A stretch of 36,059 bases of DNA, taken from Candidatus Thorarchaeota archaeon (GTDB lineage Archaea > Asgardarchaeota > Thorarchaeia > Thorarchaeales > Thorarchaeaceae). A program made the translations under genes and the position numbers. This document shows, one piece after another, positions 5,026-25,426 of this stretch (within the stretch, counting starts at the first letter, position 1; the number at the start of each line of letters is the position of its first letter). The notes beneath the pieces are model-generated. The model saw only the letters and a list, made by a program, of their open reading frames with translations, did not search any database and had not been told where the DNA came from. Location: the NCBI GenBank assembly GCA_018238375.1, contig JABCTJ010000130.1:1-36059 (forward strand). Reading direction: 5' to 3'.

Positions 5026-5916
5026 TCACTTACCCTCCATTGGATGCGTCAAGTATTTCACGTCAAGATTCTTTGATATGATTGCAGTGCTCTTTCGTGC
5101 GGCCCAACATTGTATGGCCACCCCAACGGGAAGACTAGCTGGATGCCGCATTGCATAATCTACTTTGACACCGAGGACCGTTGTCTTGCCGCCAAGACCC
5201 ATGGGTCCGATTCCGGTAGCATTGATTGCATCCATGATTTCAGCTTCGATCTTTGCCACCTCGGGCTCTGGATGCTTGTCATTGAGCGGCCGGAGCAACT
5301 GCTGTTTTGCAATCTTGAGGGCAATATCGGAACCGCCGCCAATTCCTACTCCGATTATGTTGGGTGCGCATGCCTTCCCCATGTACGAGATTGCGTTGTC
5401 GACCACAAGCTTCTTGACACCAGTTAGCCCGACACCAGGTTTCAGCATGCCAAGTATGCTGACATTCTCGCTACCACCACCTTTTGGGAATACAGTAATT
5501 TCCAATGAATCACCAGATACAATCTCCCAGTTTATCCATGGTATCTTCTTCCCAGTGTTGTCGCCTGAATTACCGCCAACAATCGGATTGACCGCATTTG
5601 GCCGGAGAGGAGTTTCAGCAGTGGCCTTTCGCGTTGCCTTCGCAAGAGATTCTTTAATCTCTCCAATGAATGGGAACTTGTCACCGACTTTAACATAGAA
5701 TATCATGATGCCTGTATCCTGACACATGGGCACTCCAGTGGCAGCCAGTTCGATATTCGTCAGAATAGCGGAGAACTGAGTTTTCGCAGTTTCGTCGATT
5801 TCACGCGCATGAGCCGCTTTCAGTGCTTCTTCAATCTCCTTAGGCAACACAGTTGCTGCCTTTCTCAAAAGGCGGACTGTTGTATCATGGATAACTTGAC
5901 TTGGGTCTTTCATCAT
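5026..5916 (-). CDS. fumA: Class I fumarate hydratase, alpha subunit / N-terminal domain (Fe-S hydro-lyase)
   Basis: 296 aa; PMCQDTGIMIFYVKVG, NPIVGGNSGDNTGKKIPWINWE, GGGSENVSILGML, IGVGIGGGSDIALK. Confidence 0.9.
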   Translation of the reverse strand: MMKDPSQVIHDTTVRLLRKAATVLPKEIEEALKAAHAREIDETAKTQFSAILTNIELAATGVPMCQDTGIMIFYVKVGDKFPFIGEIKESLAKATRKATAETPLRPNAVNPIVGGNSGDNTGKKIPWINWEIVSGDSLEITVFPKGGGSENVSILGMLKPGVGLTGVKKLVVDNAISYMGKACAPNIIGVGIGGGSDIALKIAKQQLLRPLNDKHPEPEVAKIEAEIMDAINATGIGPMGLGGKTTVLGVKVDYAMRHPASLPVGVAIQCWAARKSTAIISKNLDVKYLTHPMEGK

Positions 5917-6067
5917 ATCAGCTTCTGAACAATGATATTGCAGCGGGATGAGTGTGCGACCTCATATGCGGCTTAATCTATGTTACTATGAACTTCGATG
6001 AAACATGGGTGAGGACTATAAGAGATGGTAAGTATCCAAGAGTTGTACAACAGGTGATTGTAACAGA

Positions 6068-6592
6068 ATGCAATTAGACCCTTTACTCATAGTTCCTACC
6101 ATTTCCTTTGCTACAGCTGTGATACTCCTTCTAGTGTTCAGCTTTCTTGATGTTAGGGAGAGAAAAGTGTCAAATGGGCTTCTTTTTGCGGGAGGACTAG
6201 TCGGGTGTGTTGTATCAATCCTGACCGGGCATCTCTTCAGTCATACCTTTCTGTACCTCTCGGCACTCTCATTTGTCCTAGCCTTGTCCTATGTGCTATT
6301 CAGACTGGGTGCTCTTGGCGGTGCAGATGTAAAGGCACTCGTAGTAGTCGCCCTCACAAGTCCTGGAGTGGTCTACGCCCACTGGGAGAATCAAATCTAC
6401 GAGGGCGTCATGATAGGTGCAATTGAAATTCTTGTGATAGTGTTTGTGGGGTATCTCTACTGGCAGATTCTTCGGCGCTCTGGTAGAACTACCTCAGAAG
6501 AAAGAGTAGTCCCGCTCATACCCCTGCTTCTTGTTGGATACGTAGTCGTTCAGATGATGCCATTCATCTCGCAGATTCTGTTCATCAGCTAG
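6068..6592 (+). CDS. Prepilin peptidase (A24 family aspartic, archaeal FlaK/PibD-like)
   Basis: Multi-TM; first Asp in SFLDVRERKVSN and second in GGADVKAL (GxGD-like). Confidence 0.8.
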   Translation: MQLDPLLIVPTISFATAVILLLVFSFLDVRERKVSNGLLFAGGLVGCVVSILTGHLFSHTFLYLSALSFVLALSYVLFRLGALGGADVKALVVVALTSPGVVYAHWENQIYEGVMIGAIEILVIVFVGYLYWQILRRSGRTTSEERVVPLIPLLLVGYVVVQMMPFISQILFIS

Positions 6593-15214: not shown

Positions 15215-15288
15215 GGGCCCGTAGCTCAGCTTGGTAGAGCAGCAGGCTCATAACCTGTCGGTCGTGAGTTCAAATCTCGCCGGGCCCA
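15215..15288 (+). tRNA. tRNA with CAT anticodon (elongator Met or Ile2)
   Basis: Acceptor GGGCCCG/CGGGCCC, D arm GCTC-AGCTTGGTA-GAGC, anticodon arm GCAGG-CTCATAA-CCTGT, T arm GTGAG-TTCAAAT-CTCGC; CCA not encoded. Confidence 0.93.
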
Positions 15289-15362
15289 CATTCTTTTCTC
15301 ACACTTAGCAAGGGCCTTATACCACCTTCACACTACTCCACATCTACATAGGAGCAGTTGAG

Positions 15363-16124: not shown

Positions 16125-16249
16125 ATCGTCGAAGGGCGCAGGACAGCAATCCTGATATCGCAGCGCATCACTTCCTGAAACGTGTAGGAAGCCCAACCAT
16201 ATATGCGGAACTTGCAGCAAAGCAAGTGGCCGCTTGAGAGGGAGTCACA

Positions 16250-18640
16250 TTGCCACGTTTCGCGAGCGAACGAAGTCATCCGAAGAAAGATAGGATTGAA
16301 GTGAAGGACTCAGATTCCAAGGAAACCCAGAGTGAAAAACTGGAGTTTGTGACGGAGTCGAAGCGAGCGGAATCGATTGAGAAAAAGCTAGAGGAATCAT
16401 TTGAGGACCTAGGCAAGCTGGAATATGACGACCCCTCAAAAGAAACCAGAAATGACAAACTTGCAGAGGCTTTCAAGGAACTTGAGGCACAAGAGAGGGT
16501 GGGGCAAATCGAGTCTTCAGACCAGATACTTGATTCTGAAACTCCAAGAAGATTTGGAGAAATTTACTCGTTGAATGAACTCGATGAATCTCTGAAGCAA
16601 TGCCCTGAGCGGCGAATACAGAGAAGCTTCGAGAATGATTACCGAAAGGCAAAGGCGTACTTTGAGTCGGAGGAGGCTACTGAGCGCGAAAAGGGAGCGG
16701 ACGAAGATGTGGATTCAGCAAGATCAAAGCTTGTTGAAGACATGGAAAAGCGAGAACAAAGGCGGAGATTCGAAGAGGACCATGGCGGGCTTCCCGAGGT
16801 GTCCATCAAGTCAATGAATGATGTGGACAATCTGATTGTGAAACATCCCGACATGAAAAGAAGTAAGAAATTCGAAACGATGTATAGACATTGTGAAATC
16901 TATTTCGAGGTAAAGGATGATTGGTCCAAGACTCGGGAGGAGCTCTCACAGATTCATGATGTTTGCAACACACGCGCGGGCAATTGGCGAGCAGGAAAGG
17001 AACCAACTATGATATCCACTCTTCGCAAGCGTGAGGAGGAGAAAATCATCAGGGAATGGGCGGCGAGTCAATCAGAAATCGAGTCTATTAAGCCACAGAC
17101 AGTAGATAACACATCCGATCTAGGGAGAACCGACTCCGGAGCAGTTCACAAAATCAGCTCGGAAGTAGTGCATCAATCACTAGAAGGAATTGGGGAATCG
17201 AAATCATGGAAAGACAGGGAGGTCGCTGCATCTATTGAGAGGATGTATCGAAATCAGGTGAATGAGCGGCAGCATATCTACATTGCAGACTTGCGGAAAG
17301 ATTCGGGATGGAATCAGACCCAACTGAGGGACTTCGAGAAGTACGTCCAGACGAACCAACGGAGCCTAGAGAAGTCCCTAGCTGCCATCAGTCTACCTGA
17401 AGGCGTCCAAGAACCCCGATTATCGATGGCTGATGGCCGATTATACGTCTGGACACCTAAGCTAAGGGCAGATGAGCTCCTTAATGCCTACGAGAAGCAG
17501 TTTTTCTATTTCCAAAACAACGGGGGTGTAGCGCGGCTTGTGGAAGACCTTCAGAAGCAACTGCAGCTGGAAGGCAGCCTTCACAAGGCCCATGGTCATC
17601 TCAATGAACTGATTAGGCAGTCCATCGCCAGTGACAGCGGCCCACCGCTCAAAGCAAGTCCATTCCATGTTAAGGGTCAACGTGTGGAGGGGAGAGTTCT
17701 CAGATTCTATCTTGATGCAATGGGAATGTCACTAACTGATCTTGAAGGAAGGATTACGAAAATTGCGGGCCCGAATGGTCAGGCGGGGATTAAGAATCCG
17801 AGATTCCCAAAGGGTGAGGAATTGGAGGTTTCAATGGCACGCCTCACCGCATCGATTGTGAGCGACGGCCATCTCAGGGAATCGGGAAGGATAACATATC
17901 TTGAGAAGAACCTAGAACGGATTGAAAGGGTCAGACAGATACTCACCAACTTTGGAGATATCAAGGTCGAGGGTGGTTTTCGAAAGGGTGTGTATGAGAT
18001 TCACATCCCATGTCAGATTGGATTAGCCCTAATAGAATGGGGAATGACACCGGGAGATAAAGCCATCCACAATCCTGGCCTTTCTGAAAGGATTCTGAAT
18101 GGCTCGGAGAGAGTGAGAGGTGCCTATCTTGAGGAACTAATCCCTGAGGATGGCTATTTCCATCCATCTACCGGATTCGCATGGAATCGTAGTCATGCAC
18201 TTCATGCAGGTAACAAGACTGCTGATTCCGGATTCGAACAGAGGATCTCGCAAGACGAGGTCAGCTTAATGCAGGAATTTGGGACGAAAAGCAAGAAACT
18301 GGTTAAGCGAAAGAGTATTTCCTATGGAGCCCTAAAAGAACTGCAAACACATGATGACCATAGGTTCGCAGATGCTGCTAGGAATCTCGTTCAGGCCATA
18401 AATGAGAATCCTAATCGGCTAATTAGAGATGAATGTCGAATAGCTGAGAGTCTCGGAATCCAAGTCACGTTATTACCCGACCAAGTCAGATACTCCCTTG
18501 CCACTGGCAGAGTATCCGTAAGATGGAGAGCGTCCACGACTAGCGTGGATGATGCTCTTCGATGGGCAGACATTTGTCCTCCGAACGACATCGAGAAGAA
18601 GCAAGTTGTAGAGAATTGGCAGCGGAAGAGAGCTGATTGA
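16250..18640 (+). CDS. Large protein with N-terminal internal repeats, HTH-like segment and LAGLIDADG homing-endonuclease-like domain
   Basis: 796 aa (TTG start as given; true start uncertain). LAGLIDADG-like LTASIVSDG and LEELIPEDG; repeats IYSLNELDESLKQCPERRIQRSFENDYRKAKAYFE and IKSMNDVDNLIVKHPDMKRSKKFETMYRHCEIYFE. Confidence 0.75.
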   Translation: MPRFASERSHPKKDRIEVKDSDSKETQSEKLEFVTESKRAESIEKKLEESFEDLGKLEYDDPSKETRNDKLAEAFKELEAQERVGQIESSDQILDSETPRRFGEIYSLNELDESLKQCPERRIQRSFENDYRKAKAYFESEEATEREKGADEDVDSARSKLVEDMEKREQRRRFEEDHGGLPEVSIKSMNDVDNLIVKHPDMKRSKKFETMYRHCEIYFEVKDDWSKTREELSQIHDVCNTRAGNWRAGKEPTMISTLRKREEEKIIREWAASQSEIESIKPQTVDNTSDLGRTDSGAVHKISSEVVHQSLEGIGESKSWKDREVAASIERMYRNQVNERQHIYIADLRKDSGWNQTQLRDFEKYVQTNQRSLEKSLAAISLPEGVQEPRLSMADGRLYVWTPKLRADELLNAYEKQFFYFQNNGGVARLVEDLQKQLQLEGSLHKAHGHLNELIRQSIASDSGPPLKASPFHVKGQRVEGRVLRFYLDAMGMSLTDLEGRITKIAGPNGQAGIKNPRFPKGEELEVSMARLTASIVSDGHLRESGRITYLEKNLERIERVRQILTNFGDIKVEGGFRKGVYEIHIPCQIGLALIEWGMTPGDKAIHNPGLSERILNGSERVRGAYLEELIPEDGYFHPSTGFAWNRSHALHAGNKTADSGFEQRISQDEVSLMQEFGTKSKKLVKRKSISYGALKELQTHDDHRFADAARNLVQAINENPNRLIRDECRIAESLGIQVTLLPDQVRYSLATGRVSVRWRASTTSVDDALRWADICPPNDIEKKQVVENWQRKRAD

Positions 18641-18713
18641 CTAAGCTGCAAACAGCATTATCAGAGAGTGTATTGAAAGGTTAAATGAGTGTGTGGAAGC
18701 GCCGCCGGGAGGG

Positions 18714-18743
18714 GTGTCGTACGTCATGGATGTCATGACGTTT
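18714..18743 (-). other. tRNA-Asn intron 3 (T-loop, 59/60), 30 nt
   Basis: AAACGTCATGACATCCATGACGTACGACAC; inner hairpin ACGTCATG-ACATC-CATGACGT; 3-nt bulges AGA and ACC; outer helix is the T-stem GGAGG/CCTCC. Confidence 0.82.
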
Positions 18744-18757
18744 CTCGAACCTCCGAC

Positions 18758-18787
18758 CATTAGCCGCACACCACGATATGTGATGCA
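18758..18787 (-). other. tRNA-Asn intron 2 (variable region, about 45/46), 30 nt
   Basis: TGCATCACATATCGTGGTGTGCGGCTAATG; removal gives the 5-nt variable region AGGTC; inner hairpin CATCAC-ATATC-GTGGTG; junction inferred from a relaxed bulge-helix-bulge. Confidence 0.7.
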
Positions 18788-18795
18788 CTACAACT

Positions 18796-18824
18796 GTCTG
18801 GCTCTCAACCAACCGGTTGAAAGG
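18796..18824 (-). other. tRNA-Asn intron 1 (canonical position 37/38), 29 nt
   Basis: CCTTTCAACCGGTTGGTTGAGAGCCAGAC; inner hairpin CTTTCAACC-GGTT-GGTTGAGAG; 3-nt bulges TAC and ACA. Confidence 0.85.
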
Positions 18825-18945
18825 TAACAGGCTGTCGCTCTACCAACTGAGCCACGGCGGCATGATTCGAGTCGGTGTGACCCAGGGGTTGCAATATTAA
18901 CGTTGCTGTTTCGCAATGCCACTCCCGGTGGCGCCACTCCTTCTG

Positions 18946-24049: not shown

Positions 24050-24191
24050 GGGATGCTTGGTTGCATTTCGTTGCTTAAGTCAATACGGATGGGGACTTCG
24101 TTAGTTGGTGGAAAAAGAGAGCATGCAACGGCTGCCAAGAACTTGTGCAATTCTGGACATTTTGTAGGTGGTTATAACATACTGCTCAGGA

Positions 24192-24212
24192 TTGAACGAT
24201 GTGGACGTTCAA
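24192..24212. repeat. Inverted repeat TTGAACG-ATGTGGA-CGTTCAA overlapping the tnpB start codon
   Basis: Arms at 24192-24198 and 24206-24212. Confidence 0.6.
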
Positions 24213-25426
24213 TGCTGATTTCAAGGGCTTTCAAATACGAACTGGACCCAAACAACCAGCAGAGGACCAGGCTCTCTCAACATGCCGGGTGCGCGCGTTT
24301 TGCTTACAACTGGGGTTTGCAGCAGAGAATTGCACTCTACCGTCAAAGTCAGGACAAGAAGCGTTTTACCAGTGCTATTGCACAACACAGGGAACTGAAC
24401 CGACTGAAGAAAACGGTCTATCCATGGATGTATGAGGTCTCCAAGTGTGCCCCACAGGAGGCCCTGAGAAACCTTGAACGAGCCTTCAGGAACTTCTATC
24501 GGGGATTGAAGTCCGGGAAGAGAGTGGGATTTCCCAAGTTCAAGAAGCGGGGTGTACATGACAGTTTCAGACTCACTGGCACCATCCGATTTATTGGTCG
24601 CATGATTCAATTGCCACGACTAGGAAGAATCAGGCTCAAGGAGAAGAGAGAGAGTTACTTCAAAGGAAGGATCCTGTCGGTCACCGTGACCAAGAGAGCT
24701 GACAGATGGTATGTGTCAGTGACTGTTGAAATGGAGATAGGTCGCCCTGAACCTCCAGGTGGTGGACCTGTAGGAGTGGACCTTGGTGTCAAGACTCTGG
24801 CCACTCTCTCTGATGGAATCGCGTATTCCAATCCGCGAGTGCTGGAGAAGAAACTGAGAAAGCTGAGAAGACTATCCAACTGCCTATCACGAAAGAAGAG
24901 AGGGAGCAAGAACAGCGAGCGAGCAAGACATGGACTTGCTAGACTCCATCTGAGAGTCTTCAACATCCGGCAAGACACACTGCACAAGATCACGACCCAT
25001 CTGGCCAAGAACCACAGTCAGATAGTGATTGAGGACCTGTGTGTCGCAGGGATGCTGAAGAACAGGAGACTGTCCCGAGTGATTGCTGATGTGGGGTTCT
25101 ACGAGTTCAGAAGACAACTGCAGTACAAGTGTGAGTGGTATGGTTCTGAGCTTGTTGTAGCCCCACGATTCTACCCGTCATCGAAGAGATGTTCAGCCTG
25201 CGGGAATATCAAGAAAGACCTGACACTATCAGACAGAGTCTACGTCTGTACTGAGTGCGGGTTGGAGATGAACCGCGATTTGAACGCTGCATGTAATCTT
25301 GTCGCCGCCAGTTGGACGGAGACAGAAAACGCCTGTGGAGAGGACGTAAGACTTGTGGCAGATTCGGTAGGATCTGCAGAGCAGACCTCAATGAATCAGG
25401 AACCGAACATCAGTCAAGGACATTGA
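24212..25426 (+). mobile_element. tnpB: TnpB (IS200/IS605/IS1341-type RNA-guided nuclease), apparently intact and without TnpA
   Basis: 404 aa from MLISRAFKYELDPNNQQ; RuvC GVDLGVKTLATL, VIEDL, NRDLNAACN; zinc finger CSACG...CTECG. Confidence 0.93.

Follow-up and report, generated by a model that had tools for sequence, protein, structure and literature searches.

A LAGLIDADG protein that stands alone beside an intron-bearing tRNA gene raises three questions: (i) whether it is a nuclease or a DNA-binding regulator, (ii) whether its gene is mobile, and (iii) what became of the gene into which it may have inserted. The window analysed here is a 36,059-nt stretch of a Candidatus Thorarchaeota genome (contig JABCTJ010000130.1, assembly GCA_018238375.1). 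The gene in question, a putative LAGLIDADG homing endonuclease gene (HEG; 16250..18640, plus strand), is an intact ORF of 796 aa with a TTG start. An earlier note on this DNA had pointed out two LAGLIDADG motifs, an N-terminal duplication of ~36 aa and an HTH-like stretch, had seen neither an intein nor a host protein, and had considered a domesticated WhiA-like regulator, a free-standing homing nuclease or part of a defence system. The adjacent intron-bearing tRNA gene is absent from that note.

In the protein encoded by the HEG, a duplicated helical module and an HTH segment precede the LAGLIDADG fold. The two copies of the module (residues 105-142, 16562..16675, and residues 186-223, 16805..16918, both plus strand) pair without gaps when the window protein is aligned with itself, and the local alignment holding the duplicated block scores 77, compared with a maximum of 49 in 500 shuffles. 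The HTH-like segment (residues 228-271; 16931..17062, plus strand) has three predicted helices (229-236, 240-247 and 253-279), and several family members have weak matches to HTH Pfam models. The variable N-terminal halves of the family are probably strings of DNA-binding modules, because in a 1474-aa relative the N-terminal part is matched by several HTH models, with HTH_3 at E=2.5e-6. Further along the plus strand lie LAGLIDADG motif 1 (MARLTASIVSDGHL; residues 529-542, 17834..17875) with D539 at the catalytic position, a GDK motif (residues 602-604, 18053..18061) that is a candidate catalytic-lysine segment with K604, and LAGLIDADG motif 2 (RGAYLEELIPEDGYF; residues 623-637, 18116..18160) with D634 at the catalytic position. 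Family comparison also delimits a conserved C-terminal domain (residues about 690-796; 18317..18637, plus strand), often the sole part surviving in family remnants.

Profile libraries give little guidance to this protein. Pfam and NCBIfam return nothing significant for it, the Pfam LAGLIDADG model does not match it, LAGLIDADG_3 is matched by 7/43 relatives (best 1.3e-5), and a profile search of PDB sequences gave nothing useful. The C-terminal half alone matches the homing endonuclease I-Tsp061I (2dch) in a phmmer search at E=0.0028. An AlphaFold2 model built on an alignment of 43 relatives has a high-confidence two-motif LAGLIDADG fold (mean pLDDT 85.7), the outcome of a structure check that the earlier note had proposed. 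In a Foldseek search of the PDB the best match to this model is again I-Tsp061I (E=1e-6), with PI-SceI and I-DmoI also found; the WhiA structures 3hyj and 3hyi rank behind the homing endonucleases (E=1.4e-3). The motifs are not there by chance, since D539 is retained in 48/49 family members and an acidic residue occupies position 634 in 53/53 (41 D, 12 E). The glycine at 602 is present in 51/53, and position 604 is K in 44/53, R in 8/53 and another residue in the remaining one. The ORF stands alone, and Pfam places no extein or host-protein domain in fusion with it. From sequence and model, it is well supported that the window protein is a free-standing LAGLIDADG homing endonuclease, which would act by cleaving DNA. 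It shares the fold and the catalytic positions of I-Tsp061I, I-DmoI and other archaeal intron-encoded LAGLIDADG endonucleases; whereas I-Tsp061I is intron-encoded (PDB entry), the window gene is free-standing, its product is about four times larger, and it lies beside a tRNA gene.

That gene is a tRNA-Asn(GTT) on the minus strand (18700..18861), convergent with the HEG, whose end is 59 nt away. Joining of the exons in silico gives 73 nt, and exon joining together with the precursor fold places three introns on the minus strand: intron 1 in the anticodon loop at position 37/38 (18796..18824), intron 2 after the anticodon stem at about 43/44 (18760..18789) and intron 3 in the T-loop (18714..18743). 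The minimum-energy fold of the precursor is a cloverleaf in which every intron forms a hairpin. ARAGORN does not find this intron-bearing gene. Judged by an anticodon-arm pattern, which has a single match in the source genome (a 93% complete assembly), it appears to be the sole tRNA-Asn.

The history of the site can be read from a blastn comparison of the window with same-genus genomes. Identity extends over the left flank up to 16158 and resumes in the right flank from 18922, which delimits an inserted cassette of about 2.76 kb (16159..18921) containing the HEG on the plus strand, followed by tRNA-Asn on the minus strand. At the same place two genomes, G002 and G006, have an empty site: 155 bp with an intron-bearing tRNA-Asn on the plus strand, opposite in orientation to the tRNA of the window. 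Two pieces of this older gene are still visible in the window, both on the plus strand. Its 3' end (CTCCCGGTGGCGCC; 18922..18935) lies in register with the 3' end of the empty-site tRNA, and the region upstream of it (16125..16158) aligns with the corresponding region in G002 and G006. The 14-nt leftover was located through the empty-site alignment; an automated search for leftovers of the window tRNA had no result at the cut-off used. The whole tRNA has been replaced and the orientation inverted, 14 nt being all that is left of the native 3' end. The flank identity, the leftover and the kept upstream region indicate that the cassette took the place of the older tRNA-Asn body and brought its own copy, inverted. 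This inversion relative to the older tRNA calls for an extra step or an unusual repair.

Two more same-genus genomes, G005 and G003, are occupied, with HEGs 89% and 82% identical to that of the window over the assembled parts. Comparison of the locus between genomes, as the earlier note had suggested, thus points to a mobile gene. G004 has the same inverted tRNA with an HNH-like ORF instead of the LAGLIDADG gene; this ORF is 40% identical to one in G006 that lies beside an intron-bearing tRNA-Met, and both match HNH endonuclease models weakly. The G006 ORF (L111, G006:C34, minus strand, 5786-6565) follows an elongator tRNA-Met gene. The tRNA-Met of the window (15215-15289) is intronless, and that of G003 has an intron and no HNH-like ORF. 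In G005 (L115, G005:C24), a GNAT acetyltransferase gene lies in an additional insert at the same tRNA leftover, and the borders of this insert are repeats of the tRNA 3' end (GGCGCCACTT).

Relatives of the HEG occupy comparable positions elsewhere. The 3' flanks of 85 distinct family loci were inspected and sorted into categories whose totals were counted by inspection. Most of the adjacent tRNAs escape ARAGORN, whether or not introns are allowed for, and these were recognised through an acceptor-stem pairing search and reading by eye. A convergent tRNA lies close to the HEG stop at about 19/85 loci, the isotypes being Asn, Ala, Val, Lys, Glu and Gly; the tRNAs that ARAGORN does report in the downstream stretches are all on the strand opposite the HEG (6/6). 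Since tRNA genes number only some tens per genome, against a few thousand genes in all, this rate of adjacency is reasoned to be far above chance. At two loci the convergent gene is a 5S rRNA, identified by eye; ~20 more have a conserved protein gene on the opposite strand, with its 3' end towards the HEG: S-adenosylhomocysteinase, NiFe-hydrogenase/49-kDa subunits, rubredoxin, Lsm, OTC, cysteine desulfurase, ScpB, ETF alpha, FBPase or ribosomal protein uS19. Loci L006 and L039 have a different layout, a co-directional tRNA 3' fragment (TTCGAATCC...CCA) immediately after the HEG stop codon, which suggests direct insertion of the HEG into the tRNA gene rather than the convergent arrangement.

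At protein-gene targets the 3' end of the host gene, where tested, is duplicated, with the replacement on the gene and the native end beyond the HEG. For most relatives the contigs end or only remnants survive, so the leftover could be looked for at a minority of loci. A coding copy of the target C-terminus lies beyond the HEG 5' end for cysteine desulfurase (45 aa), OTC (34 aa) and Lsm (29 aa), and the NiFe hydrogenase loci have several such copies. The replaced sequence measures about 105-127 bp (cysteine desulfurase, OTC). In the HEG-less genome G227 the site is uninterrupted: the cysteine desulfurase gene matches that of the occupied G010 as far as the stop region, and the counterpart of the leftover and flank on the far side of the G010 HEG is formed by the final 127 bp of the G227 gene and the flank downstream of it. 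The leftover is 96% identical to G227 and the replacement 82%; against G035 the values are 91% and 84%. The order is reversed against G034 (leftover 84%, replacement 90%), which could reflect 3'-end conversion in G034. At OTC the empty site is that of G030, and the duplicated stretch measures about 105 bp.

A tree of the C-terminal HEG cores (71 rows, 38 of them labelled with 16 target labels) shows that HEG lineages track their target gene across genera. The labels need 15 changes on the tree, the minimum possible, whereas shuffled labels need a mean of 26.8 and reached 15 in 0/200 trials. RNA-gene and protein-gene targets fall in separate halves of the tree, the basal split between them being weakly supported (76). 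Such tracking is predicted by site-specific homing and not by a regulator.

Family members occur in 29/59 related genomes, with up to ten matches per genome, and 30/59 are without a match; phylum-wide there are matches in 49/228 genomes, the strong ones almost confined to families f1 and f9. Numerous matches are remnants or contain stops, which fits elements that come and go. Paralogues, for which the earlier note had proposed a search in the same genome, are absent from the source genome, with its one family copy, and present in related multicopy genomes. As far as sequence can tell, the family consists of multicopy, free-standing homing endonucleases in Thorarchaeota and their relatives; a description of it was not found in the literature, and it is almost invisible to the profile libraries searched.

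The predicted fold, the retained catalytic residues, the empty sites, the 3'-end duplication and the target fidelity together make it very probable that these HEGs travel in cassettes that supply a substitute for the gene end destroyed. DNA cleavage, the position of the cut, the repair route and protection by introns can be inferred from the same pattern, as follows. The target recognised and cut by the enzyme is most likely a conserved stretch in the 3' part of tRNA-Asn, and the N-terminal HTH modules of the protein probably add DNA contacts. Repair of the break would copy in the cassette, that is, the HEG together with a replacement for the destroyed part of the gene. The replacement in the window would be a complete tRNA-Asn, inverted, with introns that break up any recognition site. 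The host would retain a working tRNA, and the cassette would be hard to lose except by exact reversal, because no other tRNA-Asn was found in the genome. For relatives the route would be the same, with other tRNA genes, 5S rRNA and conserved protein-gene 3' ends as targets.

Whether the window copy is still active bears on an alternative in which the cassette was once mobile and this copy is now fixed and inactive, kept for the sole tRNA-Asn. Compared with same-genus copies, the HEG has a dN/dS of 0.23 in its C-terminal part and 0.47 in its N-terminal part, and neighbouring genes have 0.06-0.14; the HEG is thus constrained, yet less so than host genes. The weaker constraint would suit a fixed copy, as would the single family copy in the source genome, but the values are well below 1, the ORF is intact and both catalytic residues are retained, which leaves this alternative unlikely. 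It is far less likely that the nuclease is cargo of a larger tRNA-integrating plasmid or virus inserted by its integrase: although archaeal integrases are usually recognised by integration into a tRNA gene that leaves a tRNA fragment behind (PMC3293823), the insert contains nothing besides the HEG and the tRNA, and the same family sits at protein-gene 3' ends where about 105-127 bp are replaced. The plasmid and phage collections searched contain no HEG relatives, and neither does the viral-contig collection searched with the protein query, a scan that reaches close relatives only. Least likely of all is a domesticated WhiA-type regulator that keeps the LAGLIDADG fold for DNA binding only, since its HTH modules and the appearance of 3hyj and 3hyi in the fold search are outweighed by the retained acidic residues, the far better scores of homing endonucleases, a patchy, multicopy distribution with decayed copies and presence or absence at one site, and targets that follow HEG clades. 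WhiA proper has lost the catalytic residues and carries its HTH C-terminal to the LAGLIDADG part; the window protein, with N-terminal HTHs and retained catalytic residues, falls outside that group, and the earlier note had itself found the sequence not recognisably WhiA. Of the roles which that note entertained, the free-standing homing nuclease is the one the evidence favours; PADLOC has no match for the window protein that would speak for a defence system.

The homing cassette has a likeness in fungal mitochondria, where mobile ORFs (mORFs) with carboxy-terminal replacement are known from Allomyces macrogynus atp6 and Glomus atp6, atp9, cox2 and nad3 (PMC3630166, PMC6279837). In both systems a free-standing endonuclease ORF sits at the 3' end of a conserved gene and brings a replacement 3' end, and the native end is left beyond the ORF, closer to relatives than the inserted end. 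A 3' duplication of this type is seen here in relatives at cysteine desulfurase and OTC, and leftovers also at NiFe hydrogenase and Lsm. The fungal mORFs are mitochondrial, target protein genes and lie downstream in the sense of the gene, often in phase; in contrast, the present family is archaeal, antisense (convergent) and equipped with N-terminal HTH modules, and it also targets tRNA and 5S rRNA genes. On this sequence evidence, gene-end-replacing homing would be new in archaea and on tRNA genes, with lineages faithful to one target gene across genera. Phage T4 SegB is likewise a free-standing, intronless homing endonuclease with both site and target in a tRNA gene region (PMC2988022), but it is of the GIY-YIG type and not LAGLIDADG, belongs to a phage and has a tRNA-intergenic target, and it is not known to bring a replacement tRNA copy. 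There is practical interest, too, in large LAGLIDADG proteins that carry HTH arrays and whose natural targets can be identified.

The introns of tRNA-Asn may be connected with homing. Introns are found in 92-95% of tRNA genes in three Asgard genomes (PMC11291895), and Randau and Soll, cited in PMC3293823, proposed that introns protect tRNA genes from invasion; HEGs of the present kind offer a concrete selective agent for that proposal. In the family the tRNA-Asn introns occupy several positions in a mosaic distribution. Genes beside a HEG have a mean of 2.7 introns, as against 2.1 in HEG-free ones, a weak difference (one-sided p=0.045, relatedness ignored), and the sole intron-free copy found adjoins a broken HEG; introns are common in HEG-free tRNA-Asn too. 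Next to intact HEGs, the introns would split any recognition site; the link to immunity is an unproven hypothesis. In the collaborative homing of phages a free-standing HEG targets the insertion site of an intron (PMC2988022, PMC6279837). The window resembles it in that a free-standing HEG has an intron-bearing allele as its neighbour, and the introns of this allele could disrupt the target; it differs in that its tRNA introns are of the splicing-endonuclease type and that coincidence of HEG site and intron is hypothetical. It is a tentative idea, and rather doubtful, that the non-canonical tRNA introns of Asgard archaea were shaped by tRNA-targeting HEGs, as immune alleles and as introns spreading with cassettes in a form of collaborative homing.

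Other genes accompany family members. At ~18 loci a co-directional partner gene of roughly 170-300 aa, without a Pfam match, comes right after the HEG, placed between it and the convergent target (L060, L161, L087, L016, L013, L062, L148, L023, L069 and others). Loci L053 and L054 encode members of 1474 aa whose long N-terminal part is rich in HTHs; each gene lies directly upstream of a frame in the same direction that, judged by eye, resembles methylmalonyl-CoA mutase, apparently without its N-terminus. The neighbours of the window HEG are ordinary archaeal genes, a ZIP transporter upstream and a MutS-like ATPase and a phosphoesterase downstream, and the window also contains a gene for a TnpB-like RNA-guided nuclease (24053-25426; NF040570).
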